From: Mycoemilia scoparia
Lineage: Eukaryota; Kickxellomycota; Kickxellomycetes; Kickxellales; Kickxellaceae
Direction: 5' to 3'
Length of the DNA: 64,000 nucleotides
Assembly (NCBI GenBank): GCA_027575805.1
Contig: JANBPU010000033.1
Coordinates: 56,994 to 120,993 of the forward strand
Shown here: piece after piece, positions 2,084 through 33,961 of the stretch
How the letters are laid out: every line of letters begins with the position of its first letter
How positions within the stretch are numbered: the first letter of the stretch is position 1
The notes under the pieces: generated by a model
The model's database searches: none
What the model was told of the DNA's origin: nothing
What the model saw: the letters and a program-made list of their open reading frames with translations, nothing else
Program-made: the position numbers and the translations under genes

Positions 2084-4723
2084 GAGACACCGGTTGTATG
2101 GGAAAATGCATGGATCATTGTAGGGATTTTATGAAGAGGCATTGGAGGATTATGCCCATTCTGGAGTTAAAAGAAGGAAAACGCATATCGCAAGAGAAGA
2201 GAAGGAAAGGGTAGAGAGTAAGAAAGGAGATAAATTTTCTAATATTAGATATCATATCCATAACTTTGCACTCATCTTATACATACGCAATAATGATACT
2301 TTAAATTAGGGGTATTTGGCGCTAGGGGTCGGTATCTTTTGGTGAGATGTCTTCAGTATATGCTTCAGTTGCAAGTAGACACCCTTATTCATGAATTTCA
2401 GGCACCAAAGGAACTGGATGTAAGTTTAATTCAAAACAGATGGTATAACTATATCATAATTCCGGGCAAGTTGAACTGACTAAAAGTTGCCTTCAGAATG
2501 TCGTGAAGGAGCTTTGGTTGTTGCTTATAACAAAGGTTGATGTGCAATATTCGGCTGCTACGAGCGATAACGAATTAATTGATGATGGAAAGCATGAAAT
2601 TTCCTCGGATTCTGATGTAGGGGCAGAAAACTCCATTATTTCAGGAATGACTAGGGAAGCATCTCCAGATCTCATGATGACTGGCGATGAGAGCCAGGAG
2701 CTAAGTGATTTTGACGCTCAAACAGAACCCAGTGGCACTGAGATAAAGGAACTGTCAAAAAATCTAAAGTTGATGGAGTCTATTTCTCGGAATGAGGACC
2801 AAGAGTTTTTAGACAAATATAAGGAGACTCGATCTTTAACCGTAGATACAGAAGATCCTAATGGCGAAGATGGCCAAAGCAATAAAGGAGTGGAGGTTCA
2901 GGGTGTCAACAATTGTAATGATGGACACAGATCACAGAAATATAACCCAAAAAAGAGACACCTTGATCAATACAAGCGCAAATTAAAGGCTATTCCAAAT
3001 GTTCACTGGCTTCCTGTTATTTGTTATCTTGGAATGGTATGGCTTAGGTGCCCAGTAATCCTTGGAGACTTCTACAGGCTAGTCCAGGAGGAGAGGATAC
3101 CATTTCACGCTGCTTACAGGCAGCTTCCACGACGTTGGCGTATGCAGTGTAGCAGTGAGCAATATTACAAGCTTCGGCCCAATGTAAGTTGTCAAAGTCA
3201 AATTACAGCATGTTATGCTCTAACTAGTGTAATTCTAATGATGAATTTCTATGACTATAGTTTTGCAAAGGGTGGGATTATATCAGATTTACCATTGGGA
3301 CCCTTACAAACATATATAAAGTTGAATATAACATCGGCTTTCCAAAGGGCAACAATCACCTTATCCTATACACATTGATCCAAAAGCTTAAAATAAGTCG
3401 TAAGTATTTTTAGCCGCTCGTATGTTGTTCCTGCGCCCAATAGTGACATTTTATAGATTGAGTACTTTCATTCATTATAGCAAACTTTTATATGCTGGCC
3501 CGCCGACTTATGGAATACCTCAAGATCGAGACTACATATTTGCTGCGAACAAGCTATTCACCAACACTCAGAAAATTGCCAGAGTATTGTATGGGCGCTA
3601 TTCTTATCATAGCGCTCAAACTCCATTATGCCTTTGATGGCATTGAAAGGTAAATATTGTAATTCAAAATGATTCAAATATAAGGATAAATAGGAAAAGA
3701 AGGAGAGAGAAATGGGTTGCCATTATATAATTGCAAGTTCTTTTTATTTCTACCGATGGTCTTTACTACAATAGATTCCAACCATCAGCCGAGCTGGGCA
3801 GTATGCCAAAAATTACTGAATTTATGGAACAGTGGATAAAGGATTTTAACCAAGAACTGTCTCCTGCTATCTGGGGGTAAGAGAGTCTTTAGAGCTCAAT
3901 TGTTTTATGCTCAAAAATTGCTATTAATCGAACCTTTTCTTCCTATAGCCAATTGGGATTGACGAATCTGGGCAAGCAAAAAGAGTTCATAGACCTCTGT
4001 CATCGCTTATTGCACTACAATCCAAGACATCGAGGGAAAAACGGTAAGTAATTAGCCCATCTCTGTTTTTTCCATACAATTATTGTTCTAAATATTGTAT
4101 GATAAAATATAGTTCGTGATGAGGCTTGTAAAACATTCAACAGGCTAATTGAGGATTATACTACAAGGGAGCAAAAGAGAAAGACAGCCTTTCAGCGCAA
4201 TACATCAAATGCCAGTTATTTTGAACCTGATCTGCTACATATTCCAGACACTTTCAATTCGCAGGGATATTTTGGACTTGGATTAGCAAGCCAGGTGGCC
4301 GATGACGAACAAGGCTTGCAGGGTTCCAATCATAAAAATTCTGCCGATAAAGGAAATCAGGATGTGTTCACAGGAATACCCAAAATTCGGCCACAACTTT
4401 CAAACATATCGACACTTAAACCTATATGTGGTAACCAGTACGTTTTGTATGATGAGTTGGGCAATTTCCATAGTGAGTTTTCAATGGTGGTGGCTCGCAT
4501 AGCCTTAATGGTAGGCTGCCTTCCAAATGACTTGGTCCGAATAGTTATGGCATTTGAAAAGCAGCTGACTGAGGACATTGACATAGTATCCACCCTAGTT
4601 GATCCACAACATAACCCATCATTCAGCAGTGTTATGAAGCTTTCAGAAAACGATATCTCAAAATGCAAGGATAAATTAAAATCTAGTACAAGAAAGTACA
4701 GAATCAGGAATCAGGTTTTGTAG
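1912..4723 (+). CDS. RRN7: RNA polymerase I initiation factor Rrn7/TAF1B
   Basis: Nine exons: 1912-2019, 2124-2217, 2310-2419, 2497-3183, 3261-3399, 3481-3649, 3775-3876, 3949-4043, 4113-4723; predicted product 704 aa. All junctions are GT-AG and keep frame. The N-terminal zinc ribbon is visible (C12, C15, C29, H33; CxxC...CxxxH). A conserved helix with CLQYMLQLQ and a KELW motif follows, then an acidic linker of about 140 residues. Two cyclin-like halves come next (around residue 265 HWLPVICYLGMVWLRCP; later YNIGFPKGNN and LIIALKLHYAFDGIER). In this family the TFIIB-like protein bridges core factor or SL1 to Pol I at rDNA promoters. It is longer than yeast Rrn7 (about 510 aa) because of the acidic insert and a long C-terminus. 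The gene converges on NELF-C/D. Confidence 0.93.
2053..2080. repeat. (AT)n microsatellite in RRN7 intron 1
   Basis: An uninterrupted AT dinucleotide run of about 28 bp inside the first intron of RRN7. Likely length-variable and not functional. Confidence 0.9.
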
Positions 4724-5155: not shown

Positions 5156-7502
5156 CTATTTGTTTTTTATGCTGTTTCTGAGCTGAGCAGCAAGCTGTAT
5201 ATAGTCAACACCAATTTCGCCATGTATCTGGCTTCCATTATTCTTTTCGACCGCCTCTACATAGAGGCAAAGCCACCATTTGATGGTTAAATTTTAGCTT
5301 TAACATATATATAGAATACACGATAAATAAAAAATCTCAACACCGCTTACCTAGGAAACACCGCAAATTAGAAATGTCCTTTGCATCCCTCATTACAAGA
5401 GCATGCACTACTCTGTTTATAATGTGGAGCATAAACTCTACTACTATTGCTGGGTAGGGCTGATCGATAATCTCAAGAAGCTAAATATAGATGAAAGTAA
5501 CATTGAGAGTGTGCAAAAATTCTATATAACTATAGCAGCAAGTATTTACAAATCAAGTGGGGTTGACTTTTTTGGACCTACCTTGCTAATAAAGTAAACA
5601 ACTTGGCTTTCATCCATTGATACTTGCTTTCGATGGATATAACGAAGAATGGGAATAATGTGCCCCATTTGAATGAGGCCAAGAAGACGATCGAGAATCA
5701 TCTTTTGTAGAGAAAGCTATTTTAAAACAATGTATAAATGGTAGGCAGATTAGGTTATCCTAAGCTATTTGCGGGGTCATTACAGAAGACATCTAACAGA
5801 CACCGGACTAATACGTACCTCGAGTTCTGACATCATGTTGGGAACACGAGTCTCAAAAGAGTCCAGATATATCCTGAAGATGTGCTGTTGCAACAAAGGG
5901 TGACGGTAGGCAATCTCCTCCAAAATCATTAATGGTACAGGAATCTCGGTTGAGCGGTAATACATCTGATAAAACGAATATTGATCATCTTTTATCAGAG
6001 CCTGGACCCAGGATGCAACAACCATGGCCGTGATGGGAATGCTATAATTTGGAAAGAAACTTGAGAAAGGCATGTCCATAATAATGCTATTATCGATCAG
6101 AATAAGGCTTTCTAAACTTACTCTATCCATTTTAGTATCTGTGACATTGCCCGATTTATATTTATTGTGGTCATTTTGGCATTTAGCACCCGCCTGATAG
6201 TTTTGAGAGCCGACATGGTTTCTTTCATTTCACTGTCAACCTGGTCTTTGGGTATGTCTTCAGAGTACGACGTGGCATATGCAATTAGCCATATGTAATG
6301 GTCTATATGGTCACCAGGAAGACTTTCGGAGCCAATGGCAGTATTTCCGTAGAACTCAAATAATTCCTGTAGCAGCGGCTCCATTACGACTGGATCACGA
6401 AGTAACTCGGCTGGGAGGTGCTGGCCATTATGATCATATGCCTCTCTGTATGTTTTAGATAAGCCAATTACATCTCCAGGCTTTGCGCGCTGCTCCTTGA
6501 TTATCATGGCGATGGACTTGGCTACCTGGTCTTTGGACCCGACAGGAAGGTCGTTGATAAGCAGATGGATATTACCGATCAAGGCTTGGCTGCGATTCTT
6601 GTGCATGACATATCTCTCTAGGTCTTCCTCCAATCTTGCTATGGGCAAAGCAGCTTTGCCGTATCTTTTTCTGACAGATCTCAGGATATATTTTGTCATA
6701 AAGTACATGAACTCCCTTTGGCCGCCAATGTCCTACAATAATATTGTATAAGCTGTATATTAGGCTTTGCCATTTGTCTAGTGACTATTCATTGCAATAA
6801 TCATTGGCTATATCGAACCTACCACCAACTCGCCAAACCGGTATTTCAAATCGTCATCGCTGACACCCTGTAGTCTCTCAATAGCCTCGCTTAACATAGT
6901 GTAATAGACGTGTGTGTACATAGAGGCCGTGCTGAGGCTAGTCATCTCGTTTTGGTAGCCTTTCTCGGAGATACTTTGTATAACCCTTGAAACAAATGAG
7001 CACTGTGTATGGTTTTCGCTGAGGTCATAAAACACTTTTCTCCAGTATGCTTGACCTGTTAGCGTGTCTACCCATTCTGGTAAGGCCTCTGTTGATGGGT
7101 ACCTCCCATCAATTTGTATAGGATCGAACTTTTTGGTCAGCGTGTCCTTGACGGCATCCAAGATAACCGAATCGGCATTAATACCAAGCAGCTGGAAAAC
7201 CTCGCTGCCCAACTTGTTCGTCATTTCGGCGTATCCATTATAGCTATCGACGAGGGAGCTTATAATCGTAAAAGGCGGTCCACCAGCATCCACGAATTGC
7301 TGGGCGGCGTCGATAGTTTCTCGGTTCACGATGGCATCTAAAACAGATGCGATATTAGCACCAACATTTGTTTAGCGCCTACTGTGTTATTAAGCCCGGG
7401 TTTCTAGGCTTGAGAGTAATATGTATTTTTCCATTACTTACCAGGGACAAGAAACAATGCCTTAGATTTATCAAATATGTCTTGTTTTTCTTCAGTATCC
7501 AT
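5156..7502 (-). CDS. NELFCD: Negative elongation factor subunit C/D (TH1 family)
   Basis: Seven exons on the minus strand: 7502-7442, 7337-6823, 6732-6122, 6041-5819, 5716-5582, 5480-5351, 5256-5156; product 591 aa, essentially the length of human NELF-C/D (590 aa). All junctions are GT-AG and keep frame. Family features occur in order: an early FVDAGGPP segment; FDPIQIDG followed by LPEWVDTLTGQAYWRKVFYD; ISEKGYQNEMTSLSTA; PGDVIGLSKTY; HYIWLIAYATS; IPITAMVVASWV; ILEEIAYRHPLL; ILDRLLGLIQMGHIIP; and a C-terminal DQPYPAIVVEF block. In animals NELF-C/D pairs with NELF-A and binds NELF-B and RNA, holding Pol II paused near promoters. Yeasts lack NELF, so a complete intron-bearing copy here is notable. 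The introns and fungal neighbours argue against contamination. No other NELF subunit is in the window. Confidence 0.92.
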
Positions 7503-8350
7503 TTTGAAAAGTATCTATATGTGCGTTTAGTGATAAGATTGCTTTATAGCGGCTTTTCTTTTTTAGAATAACCTAGAAAACGTGTAGGACATATATGCTG
7601 TGTATACTTTCAAAACTCAATATTTTTGAACCCAGGAGCTTCTAACCCTTATACCAACTGTGAAAAATGCGAGAAAGGCTTATGGGTTTCCAATTCAAAT
7701 GTAATTGAAGCAGCCAAAAGCGCTTTCTCTTTTTAGTCTATGTTGCAGATAGCTCCCTCCTAAAGAGTAACAAAATGCTTTATCATCATTAGCTAATAGA
7801 ATTTTCTCCAAAAATACTTTTAGGACATACCATTCGGCAAGTTCTCCACCAGAAGGGAACATACAGACACCCCCATACATTCTCTGCAAATCAGCCCATA
7901 ATCCAAATGTTTTAGCTGGAGTCTCAGTGATGATTGGCTGATATCTGGGGAAGAATCCTAGTACCATCCTTTTAGAGAAGACTCCTTTGCCGTTTATACA
8001 AATGAATGTAGCCAGCTTGCACAATCTTGTAAAGGCCTAGGTAAATAATGAAGACACCACTGAAATAGGGGGTATGAGTAAGGTTCATCCAATGGGATCC
8101 TCCACACCACAAACGATTTTCGATCCTTGTGGAATCTGAAAAAATTGGCAGCACAAAAGGCTTTCCACAGATAATATCATTAGTTGAGCCTCGACAATAA
8201 TCAGGAAATCCATTCCAAGATTAGCAAGTGCCTCCCCCACTTGTGACGTAGCAATTTTTTCTTTACTTTCTTCTTGTGCTTAAAGCCTATAGTGTGAACT
8301 TTATACACCTTTATACCAAAGATAGAGGGTAGTCTTGCCGAAACCTGGTC
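7503..8350. other. Divergent spacer between NELF-C/D and bZIP gene
   Basis: Holds the 5' regions of the minus-strand NELF-C/D gene and the plus-strand bZIP gene. Most of its middle is the dispersed repeat described at 7739-8024. Confidence 0.5.
7739..8024 (-). repeat. Dispersed repeat copy with a decayed or unknown ORF
   Basis: Read on the minus strand, a 110-aa open stretch (including MVLGFFPRYQPIITETPAK and GGELAEWYVL) ends near 7695. About 100 bp of it (7840-7975) reappears at 33258-33363 with roughly three-quarters identity, including the end GAGAACTTGCC. That end is also present at about 20600. Another part (7741-7793, around AGTAACAAAATGC) recurs near 23667 and 57322. The copies differ by indels and stops, so this is an old repeat rather than a gene. 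The element class is not recognised. Confidence 0.5.
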
Positions 8351-9835
8351 ATGTCTAATAACACTTCAAAAAAGATACTAGAGCCCACTGAAGAAAAGCT
8401 AGAAAATGATCTTACAACGGGACTTGGAGAACAAAAAACAGAGCAATTTCCAACATTAGAAGAGGAGGACAGCATAGAAATTCCAAGCGTAACGATAACG
8501 GGCGGCAGAGAGAACCAAAAGGCAACCCAAAGCAGTATCCCTCTGCAAAGACAACCATTTACACCCACAGAAGCACAAATGCTCAACATTGTTAATTCTT
8601 ATGGCGGTGCAAAGCGTCGGCGTAGTAGTGTGGAAGCAGTTGCAGCTGCCAGCTCTGTACTAGCATCTTTTGCAGCCAGCGCAAAATCACAGATGAATGC
8701 TGCTGCCGCTGCCGCCGCCGCCGCTGCAGCTGCAGCGGTGACAATGTCTCCCACTCAATCGACGGAGGCTCAATATGGCAGCTATCCGTCAGTCATGAAC
8801 CAGATATCACTGTCTATGCTGGAGAACACCACAGACAAGGGGGTAAGCCCATCAAGGCTGAACCAGTCTCAGGACTTTGACCTTGCAGCGTTTGCGGGAC
8901 TTCCCGCGCACGCAGCATTTGCAGACTCGTCCGCAGGACCCACAATGATAGCACCAGCCAGCAGCGTGGTCGCGTCGACTCCTGAGAAAAATGTATCAGG
9001 GCTGCAAATAAGAGTTGACAACAAGTCGCAAAAGGGCTTTGAAAAGGATACAGATATTGACCCACTCAGTACGACATCGTCAGGGATGCCACTCACGCCA
9101 GATGCGCCAGGGTCGGGTAGGCCTGGCTCCCTGAGGCATCTCACAGCAGAAGAGAGGCGCTCACGGAGGCTTCAGCGCAACAGATTAGCAGCAAAGGAAT
9201 GTCGACAAAAGAAGAAGCAGTATATCAGGGATCTTGAAGAGAGGGTTGAGGCGCTGGAAAAGGAAAACGTTCAGCTACTCAAGGAGCTCAACGAGCTCAA
9301 CGCAAAATTCACGCTGGGGATTATGCGGACTGGAAACACGCCAATACTCGGAAACTCGACTCCCATCAGCGGCATGCCGAGAGATGTTTGTGTGGACCCT
9401 GCGGCAGCAGTGGCCTCGGCACTTCGAACAACAACTGCTGCTGCCAGCGTTGCCGAGCCAACGGGTGCCGTTGAGAATACCATGAACTCAACAACAGCGT
9501 CAATAACCAACCCGAATGTTAGTATGGCGATGACCCAGGCCACGGATGTCCTGCTCTTTTCAACAATGCCACAAGACCAGACTCAAATGACCAAAAGCCC
9601 ATCGCCAGATCCGGTGAGCCTCCTATTCTCTATATCCTCACCGCCTTCACCGGCTGTAACAAACAAAAGTATCACAAGAGGAAATACAAACACTCCGCCA
9701 GCCCCATCCACCCCGAACTCAAAACGTCCAAGCAATCTAAACCCCAGAGGATCCTCAAAAGCCGCAAAGGTTAACGCTGTGCATTCCCCAACCAGCAACT
9801 CGTCCCGGCTGTCCAACACAGGCCAGGTGGCGTGA
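8351..9835 (+). CDS. CREB/ATF-like bZIP transcription factor
   Basis: Single exon, 494 aa, ATG at 8351. The basic region and leucine zipper lie at about residues 268-322. The DNA-contact signature NRLAAKECRQKKKQYIRDLE matches the CREB/ATF class (N..AA..CR with the Lys-rich extension), and zipper leucines follow in the segment ALEKENVQLLKELNEL. The remainder is low-complexity: an acidic N-terminus, a polyalanine tract (about residues 117-129), and Ser/Thr/Pro-rich flanks with many SP/TP sites suggesting phosphorylation control. A KRRRSSVEA segment near residue 88 resembles a basophilic-kinase site and could be a PKA target; that is inference. Expected to bind CRE-type palindromes as a dimer in the nucleus. 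Confidence 0.9.
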   Translation: MSNNTSKKILEPTEEKLENDLTTGLGEQKTEQFPTLEEEDSIEIPSVTITGGRENQKATQSSIPLQRQPFTPTEAQMLNIVNSYGGAKRRRSSVEAVAAASSVLASFAASAKSQMNAAAAAAAAAAAAAVTMSPTQSTEAQYGSYPSVMNQISLSMLENTTDKGVSPSRLNQSQDFDLAAFAGLPAHAAFADSSAGPTMIAPASSVVASTPEKNVSGLQIRVDNKSQKGFEKDTDIDPLSTTSSGMPLTPDAPGSGRPGSLRHLTAEERRSRRLQRNRLAAKECRQKKKQYIRDLEERVEALEKENVQLLKELNELNAKFTLGIMRTGNTPILGNSTPISGMPRDVCVDPAAAVASALRTTTAAASVAEPTGAVENTMNSTTASITNPNVSMAMTQATDVLLFSTMPQDQTQMTKSPSPDPVSLLFSISSPPSPAVTNKSITRGNTNTPPAPSTPNSKRPSNLNPRGSSKAAKVNAVHSPTSNSSRLSNTGQVA

Positions 9836-11121: not shown

Positions 11122-11125
11122 GAAG

Positions 11126-11199
11126 TGTTTTCGCCCGGGTTCGAACCGGGGACCGTCTGTGTGTTAGACAGACGTGATAACCAACTACACCACGAAAAC
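11126..11199 (-). tRNA. tRNA-Val (AAC), intronless
   Basis: The minus strand folds as a standard cloverleaf. The acceptor stem is GTTTTCG with CGAAAAC, the D arm contains GTGTAGTTGGTTATCAC, and the anticodon loop CTAACAC (anticodon AAC, decoding GTT valine) is flanked by a GTCTGT/ACAGAC stem. The T arm is CCCGGTTCGAACCCGGG, a consensus B box. The discriminator is A, no CCA is encoded and there is no intron. A T6 terminator follows. Confidence 0.95.
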
Positions 11200-33417: not shown

Positions 33418-33535
33418 AGATTGCAACACCAGGTGTTCCCACTTGGTCCCCCACAGTAGTACTCTCCTGGCCATAACGTGCTTGGTTACGGTGATCGGAC
33501 GGGAACCGACATTTTCTCGTTTGTATGGTCGCAAT
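33418..33535 (-). rRNA. 5S ribosomal RNA, single dispersed copy
   Basis: About 118 nt on the minus strand. The 5' end ATTGCGAC pairs with the 3' GTTGCAAT to form helix I. Core 5S sequence is recognisable: CCCGTCCGATCACCG in loop B/C, AACCAAGCACG in the box A region, GAGAGTACTACTGTGGGGGA and GTGGGAACACCTGGTG. A T6 terminator follows at once, which suggests an expressed gene rather than a decayed copy. There is no tandem neighbour, so 5S genes are dispersed at least in part in this genome. Confidence 0.9.
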
Positions 33536-33961
33536 TAATCAGTGTTGAAATTGTATAGCAAATGGCTTGTGATTGAGCCAAAATCCGAGGATTCATTATT
33601 TCTGCCTATTTCATGCTTGATCACTATTGAATTTCCATCATATCATTCGGCACATTGTGATTTAAACAGGATATCGATTTTTATAAACGATCATAGTTAC
33701 ATTGATAGGGAAGCAAATGATCGTAAATAACGGTTTGTTCACATGCGATATTGACTTTATTAGAAAATATAGGAAAACAGGAAACGAAACAAAAAATTAT
33801 GACCATAGAATAACTTTAAAAAACGATAAATATAGACAGATGGATGTTGTGTATATAGAGATAGACAAAGCTCATTATGTTGAATATAGTTTGCAATTAA
33901 TTGCTGCGGTGTAAACCCAGCTATTTTGACGAAGGATAATATGCTAAAGGCAAGGAGATGA
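33536..33961. other. Intergenic spacer
   Basis: AT-rich DNA between the 5S gene and the 3' end of the chitinase gene. Nothing recognised. Confidence 0.5.

Follow-up and report, generated by a model that had tools for sequence, protein, structure and literature searches.

Among the closest described relatives of the gene reported here are human NELF-C/D, a subunit of the negative elongation factor (NELF) known from several solved structures (PDB 7ycx, 6gml, 5l3x and others), and the core NELF of other eukaryotes. Its subunits NELF-B and NELF-C/D are widespread and were most likely present in the ancestor of all eukaryotes, with apparent secondary losses in S. pombe, S. cerevisiae, C. elegans, and land plants (PMC11482795, preprint, 2024 version). 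Homologs of NELF-A and NELF-C in Dictyostelium and Chlorella also suggested an early-eukaryote presence followed by later losses (PMC4940160, 2016), and NELF is stated to be absent from both Paramecium and S. pombe (PMC12716044). Orthologs of NELFB and NELFC occur without NELFA and NELFE in Fungi (PMC10591015, 2023); the text of PMC11482795 does not specify the fungi in which NELF-B and NELF-C/D occur. We analyzed a 64,000-nucleotide stretch (the window) of the genome of Mycoemilia scoparia (Kickxellomycetes, Kickxellales in the NCBI taxonomy), in which an earlier note had proposed a complete NELF-C/D gene. The contig bearing the window (C256) measures 120,993 bp, and the assembly comprises 21,160,063 bases in 466 contigs. 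The premise of the note that NELF is an animal or holozoan trait is outdated, as three of these papers place it more widely (PMC4940160, PMC11482795, PMC10591015). Its view that budding and fission yeasts lack NELF agrees with the apparent losses in S. cerevisiae and S. pombe (PMC11482795), and an old core that was later lost, as it had also suggested, is supported in print (PMC11482795, PMC4940160).

The gene occupies positions 7502-5156 of the window on the minus strand. In the exon model derived from the sequence, seven exons are spliced in frame into a 591-residue protein, and the six introns of 80-104 bp are all of the GT-AG type. The protein is identical to the deposited H4219_002220 (100% identity across 100% of the length), which carries the name "TH1 protein" in UniRef. 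An alternative acceptor in intron 3, resulting in a 35-bp intron and 15 additional residues with the frame kept, was dropped in favor of the 80-bp intron because the deposited protein agrees with the latter and ten relatives lack an insert at this position. The seven-exon, intron-rich structure, the whole TH1 layout, and the nearly human length described in the earlier note were thus all borne out. The Pfam profile TH1 (PF04858) matched residues 3-562 over profile positions 30-575 of 579 with an E-value of 3.1e-81 and a score of 274.3 bits against the curated cut-off of 24, and the human chain 7ycx_g has 590 residues. Human NELF-C/D was the best match in a sequence search of the PDB (2.4e-51; 130 identical out of 502 aligned residues), where NELF-C/D accounted for eight of the nine matched sequences, the ninth being a designed protein (7.7e-4). 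Residues 16-145, encoded by exons 1 and 2, matched the NELF-C/D chain (8jj6_D) of the solved NELF-BCE complex with an E-value of 5.9e-12. Within exon 4, the positions of the stretch LEEIAYRHPLL are invariant across 11 aligned fungal-type sequences. TH1 was the sole family reported by Pfam, and the bacterial and archaeal NCBIfam library gave no match. We regard the assignment of the 591-residue protein to NELF-C/D as virtually certain.

The predicted structure points in the same direction. An AlphaFold2 model was built from 24 aligned sequences (mean predicted local distance difference test score, pLDDT, 83.1; predicted template-modeling score, pTM, 0.65). Foldseek returned 405 matches to the PDB at E ≤ 10, and all 11 at E ≤ 0.001 came from NELF-C/D entries, in which we infer the chains 8jj6_C and W of 8uh*/8uis to be NELF-C/D. 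The template-modeling (TM) scores by target length reached 0.77 for 5l3x_B and 0.79 for 8uis_W, as for a shared NELF-C/D fold, and 0.59-0.67 for full chains. It is the sequence evidence and not the model that decides the identity. From rank 12 downward, the Foldseek matches are importins, CAND1, and further solenoids (E-values of 0.012 and weaker), as might suit an unrelated HEAT-repeat protein mistaken for NELF-C/D. However, Pfam assigned TH1 alone, the PDB sequence matches were NELF-C/D except for the one designed protein, and NELF-C/D held the first 11 Foldseek ranks, which together refute the HEAT-repeat explanation and leave it a negligible probability.

To place the protein among its relatives, we ran two protein database searches, with scoring limited to 7997 candidates in each and six query sequences in the second. 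Among the matches listed, 17 of 18 in the first search were from named fungi and one was without an organism name. In the second search, 28 of the 76 matches listed were from named fungi, and the remaining 48 were either from animals or lacked an organism name; this list is incomplete, with three of its own queries (P0001, P0002, P0018) absent from it. The named fungal matches listed include Coemansia, Linderina, Dipsacomyces, Spiromyces, Ramicandelaber, and Basidiobolus, as well as Umbelopsis, Mortierella and kin, Phycomyces, Parasitella, Bifiguratus, and Calcarisporiella. No Dikarya were among the named matches listed in either search, from which a Dikarya-wide loss does not follow. "Negative elongation factor C/D" (in NCBI or UniRef) is already the name of 19 of the 28 named fungal matches listed. 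The entries called "TH1 protein" or "Negative elongation factor C/D" from Coemansia, Basidiobolus, Umbelopsis, Mortierella, and others represent the same gene, and we saw no substantial difference from them apart from the fairly long M. scoparia branch (1.06).

For the tree, we hand-picked 34 of the 91 collected NELF-C/D sequences; fragments, near-duplicates, and most nameless rows were among the 57 omitted. The group labels, except that of M. scoparia, are those to which we presume the sequences to belong. The M. scoparia protein and eight other Kickxellales grouped together (support 100/99), 21 fungal rows and one nameless row clustered apart from the animals (100/100), and the 11 animals formed their own cluster (100/99). 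This placement is consistent with orthology to NELF-C/D. Fine placement is unsure because of long end branches (Ramicandelaber 2.53, a EukProt row without a name 1.68, a nameless row 1.21, and M. scoparia 1.06). As the tree contains no named protist, it bears on nativity among fungi and not on the depth of the family. Animal contamination, or horizontal transfer from an animal, would be another source of such a gene. We found nothing in its favor, and against it stand the six introns, the RRN7 and bZIP genes on the same contig, the Kickxellales grouping, and the separation of the fungal rows from the animals; we rejected it on these grounds as having almost no chance of being correct. Its position beside other Kickxellales in the fungal part of the tree, away from the animals, indicates that the gene is native, as had been claimed. 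NELF-C/D of M. scoparia is most likely a vertically inherited fungal ortholog, as judged from the sequences.

A search of the same genome for NELF-B (COBRA1), which the earlier note had proposed, was successful. The COBRA1 profile matched three exons on a second contig (C250), where we modeled a five-exon gene at positions 6933-4543 on the minus strand. The resulting 663-residue protein matched COBRA1 with an E-value of 5.7e-47, and its residues 22-455 matched PDB NELF-B (2e-47) as well as entry 8jj6 (2.1e-47), so that the NELF-BCE complex is matched by both proteins. The partner expected for a NELF complex is therefore present, and NELF-C/D occurs together with NELF-B in a genome where the pair is expected. 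A protein search with NELF-B gave at least 5 matches (7996 candidates scored); the relatives listed are Martensiomyces pterosporus and three Coemansia, and Coemansia sp. RSA 1813 appears in the match lists of both NELF-B and NELF-C. The aligned NELF-B stretch stops at human residue 453, before the last 60 residues. NELFB is reported to lose its binding to NELFE when its last 60 residues are deleted and its binding to NELFA/NELFC when the first 78 are deleted (PMC10591015). The kept N-terminal part and the unmatched C-terminus of the fungal NELF-B would fit a B-C core without NELF-E.

As a separate observation, intron 2 of the NELF-B gene (C250 6064-5963, minus strand, locus L008) starts with GCAAGT, ends with TAG, and looks like a GC-AG intron. 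The deposited NELF-B, H4219_005519 (652 residues), lacks 11 residues at this intron that are present in four relatives, and the deposited model probably contains a small error there.

Other components of animal pausing were searched for in the same genome. For NELF-A, neither the Pfam profile of its N-terminal domain (PF23553), run with cut-offs of E ≤ 0.001 and then E ≤ 10, nor human NELF-A 1-266 as a query gave a candidate in the genome, and no candidate for HEXIM or 7SK RNA was found at E ≤ 1; these empty searches fit absence and do not prove it. As positive controls, Spt4 (9.9e-6, profile positions 12-47 of 77) and Spt5-NGN (2.9e-22) were detected. With human NELF-C 50-560 as the control query, one exon of the NELF-C/D gene was found at 6.7e-19 and three other stretches only at 0.0013-0.0092, so a diverged or exon-split NELF-A, with its 146 domain positions, could be missed.

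How far does the fungal protein resemble its human counterpart? The two are alike in length, the near-full TH1 profile, the predicted fold, and the N-terminal part of the NELF-BCE complex. Unlike human NELF-C/D, which has NELF-A as a partner, the fungal protein has none that we detected. The inventory is likewise that of core NELF, with NELF-B and NELF-C/D present and NELF-A and HEXIM not detected; for certain unicellular eukaryotes, however, the core NELF paper describes what appear to be homologs of NELF-A (PMC11482795). In patch 5, the conserved polar patch whose residue K494 of NELF-C cross-links to NELF-B (PMC4940160), five of the nine human residues are identical in the fungal protein when mapped through the PDB alignment.

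In the mechanism that we propose, the N-terminal part of NELF-C would pair with NELF-B into a NELF core, which would act on RNA polymerase II (Pol II)-DSIF soon after initiation, the Spt4 and Spt5 domains being encoded in the genome. The core would slow early elongation, which would amount to a weak version of animal pausing carried out by the core only, with no detectable NELF-A, HEXIM, or 7SK. Taken jointly, the NELF-C/D identity and a predicted role of the NELF-B/C core in Pol II transcription appear highly probable; that this role consists in slowing Pol II soon after initiation is a prediction we consider rather likely.

Several points weigh against this interpretation. In patches 1-4, by which human NELF-C binds nucleic acid (PMC4940160), three of nine residues are identical, little above the overall identity, and with these patches so poorly kept RNA binding may have been lost. 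When whole chains are superposed, the model agrees only moderately with the ten long Foldseek matches (TM scores by query length of 0.53-0.59, root-mean-square deviation 4.7-11.5), and the relative placing of its parts is therefore not firm. NELF-A, which carries a Pol II-associating region in human (PMC4940160), was not found. NELFB and NELFC in such organisms may also serve functions apart from pausing (PMC10591015). The fungal pair might accordingly have an older role, e.g., in cytoplasmic signaling, to which animals added pausing later; the poorly kept patches, the failure of both NELF-A profile and human query, and the pausing-independent role argued in PMC10591015 would suit such a history. 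On the other hand, species that have the B-C/D core are reported to show higher pausing indexes than those lacking NELF (PMC11482795), and parts of both NELF-C and NELF-B of the solved NELF-BCE complex were matched. We consider the older role unlikely and prefer a slowing of Pol II by the core.

The NELF-C/D exons and the neighboring genes are listed in Table 1. Exon 3 lies within the part equivalent to human NELF-C 183-590, which was crystallized with NELF-A, and the C-terminal half of human NELF-C contains HEAT repeats (PMC4940160). The gene indeed lies between RRN7 and a bZIP gene, as the earlier note had stated. At the RRN7/TAF1B neighbor, a zinc-ribbon-like stretch near 1915-2040 was recognized by eye alone, and the frame 4106-4723, for which Pfam gave no match, presumably belongs to the same gene. 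Elsewhere in the window, we observed its sole 5S rRNA gene (33418-33536, minus strand; Rfam, 93.6 bits) and a tRNA-Val (AAC) (11125-11199, minus strand), which ARAGORN identified and Rfam also recognized as a tRNA.

Table 1. NELF-C/D exons and neighboring genes in the M. scoparia window.
Feature	Positions	Strand	Basis or remark
NELF-C/D exon 1	7442..7502	-	ATG at 7502; translation and match to deposited protein
NELF-C/D exon 2	6823..7337	-	Splice model; PDB sequence match, Foldseek
NELF-C/D exon 3	6122..6732	-	Within part equivalent to human NELF-C 183-590
NELF-C/D exon 4	5819..6041	-	Carries conserved stretch LEEIAYRHPLL
NELF-C/D exon 5	5582..5716	-	C-terminal half; splice model
NELF-C/D exon 6	5351..5480	-	Splice model
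NELF-C/D exon 7	5156..5256	-	Ends with stop codon TAG at 5158-5156
RRN7/TAF1B gene (part)	2449..4723 (ends approximate)	+	Rrn7_cyclin_N (3.3e-14), frame 2449-3375
bZIP transcription factor gene	8336..9835 (start approximate)	+	bZIP_1 (1.9e-15)

Fungal NELF-C/D is already known, both in databases and in print, and the M. scoparia case is confirmed but ordinary. Our literature search for NELF in early-diverging fungi found nothing, and that for NELF in Mucoromycota found only the abbreviation spelled out in the gliotoxin passage of a review. The novelty implied by the earlier note does not hold, as fungal NELFB and NELFC have been published (PMC10591015) and the deposited entries are already named. 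Its suggestion that a NELF core survives in some fungi was right, if anything modest, given the many named fungal genera among the matches listed. For a pattern already described in fungi at large, the locus offers a checked Kickxellales example with both core subunits, gene models, and a tree. Fungi that carry NELF, among them Umbelopsis, Mortierella, Phycomyces, and Coemansia, would be suitable for studying how the NELF core works in the absence of the animal additions. It is a tentative idea, somewhat doubtful at present, that early-branching fungi run a minimal NELF-B/C heterodimer without NELF-A, NELF-E, HEXIM, or 7SK, which alone would impose a measurable start-site-proximal slowdown of Pol II. 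If true, these fungi would provide a natural experiment, as the core could be examined on its own and also deleted.
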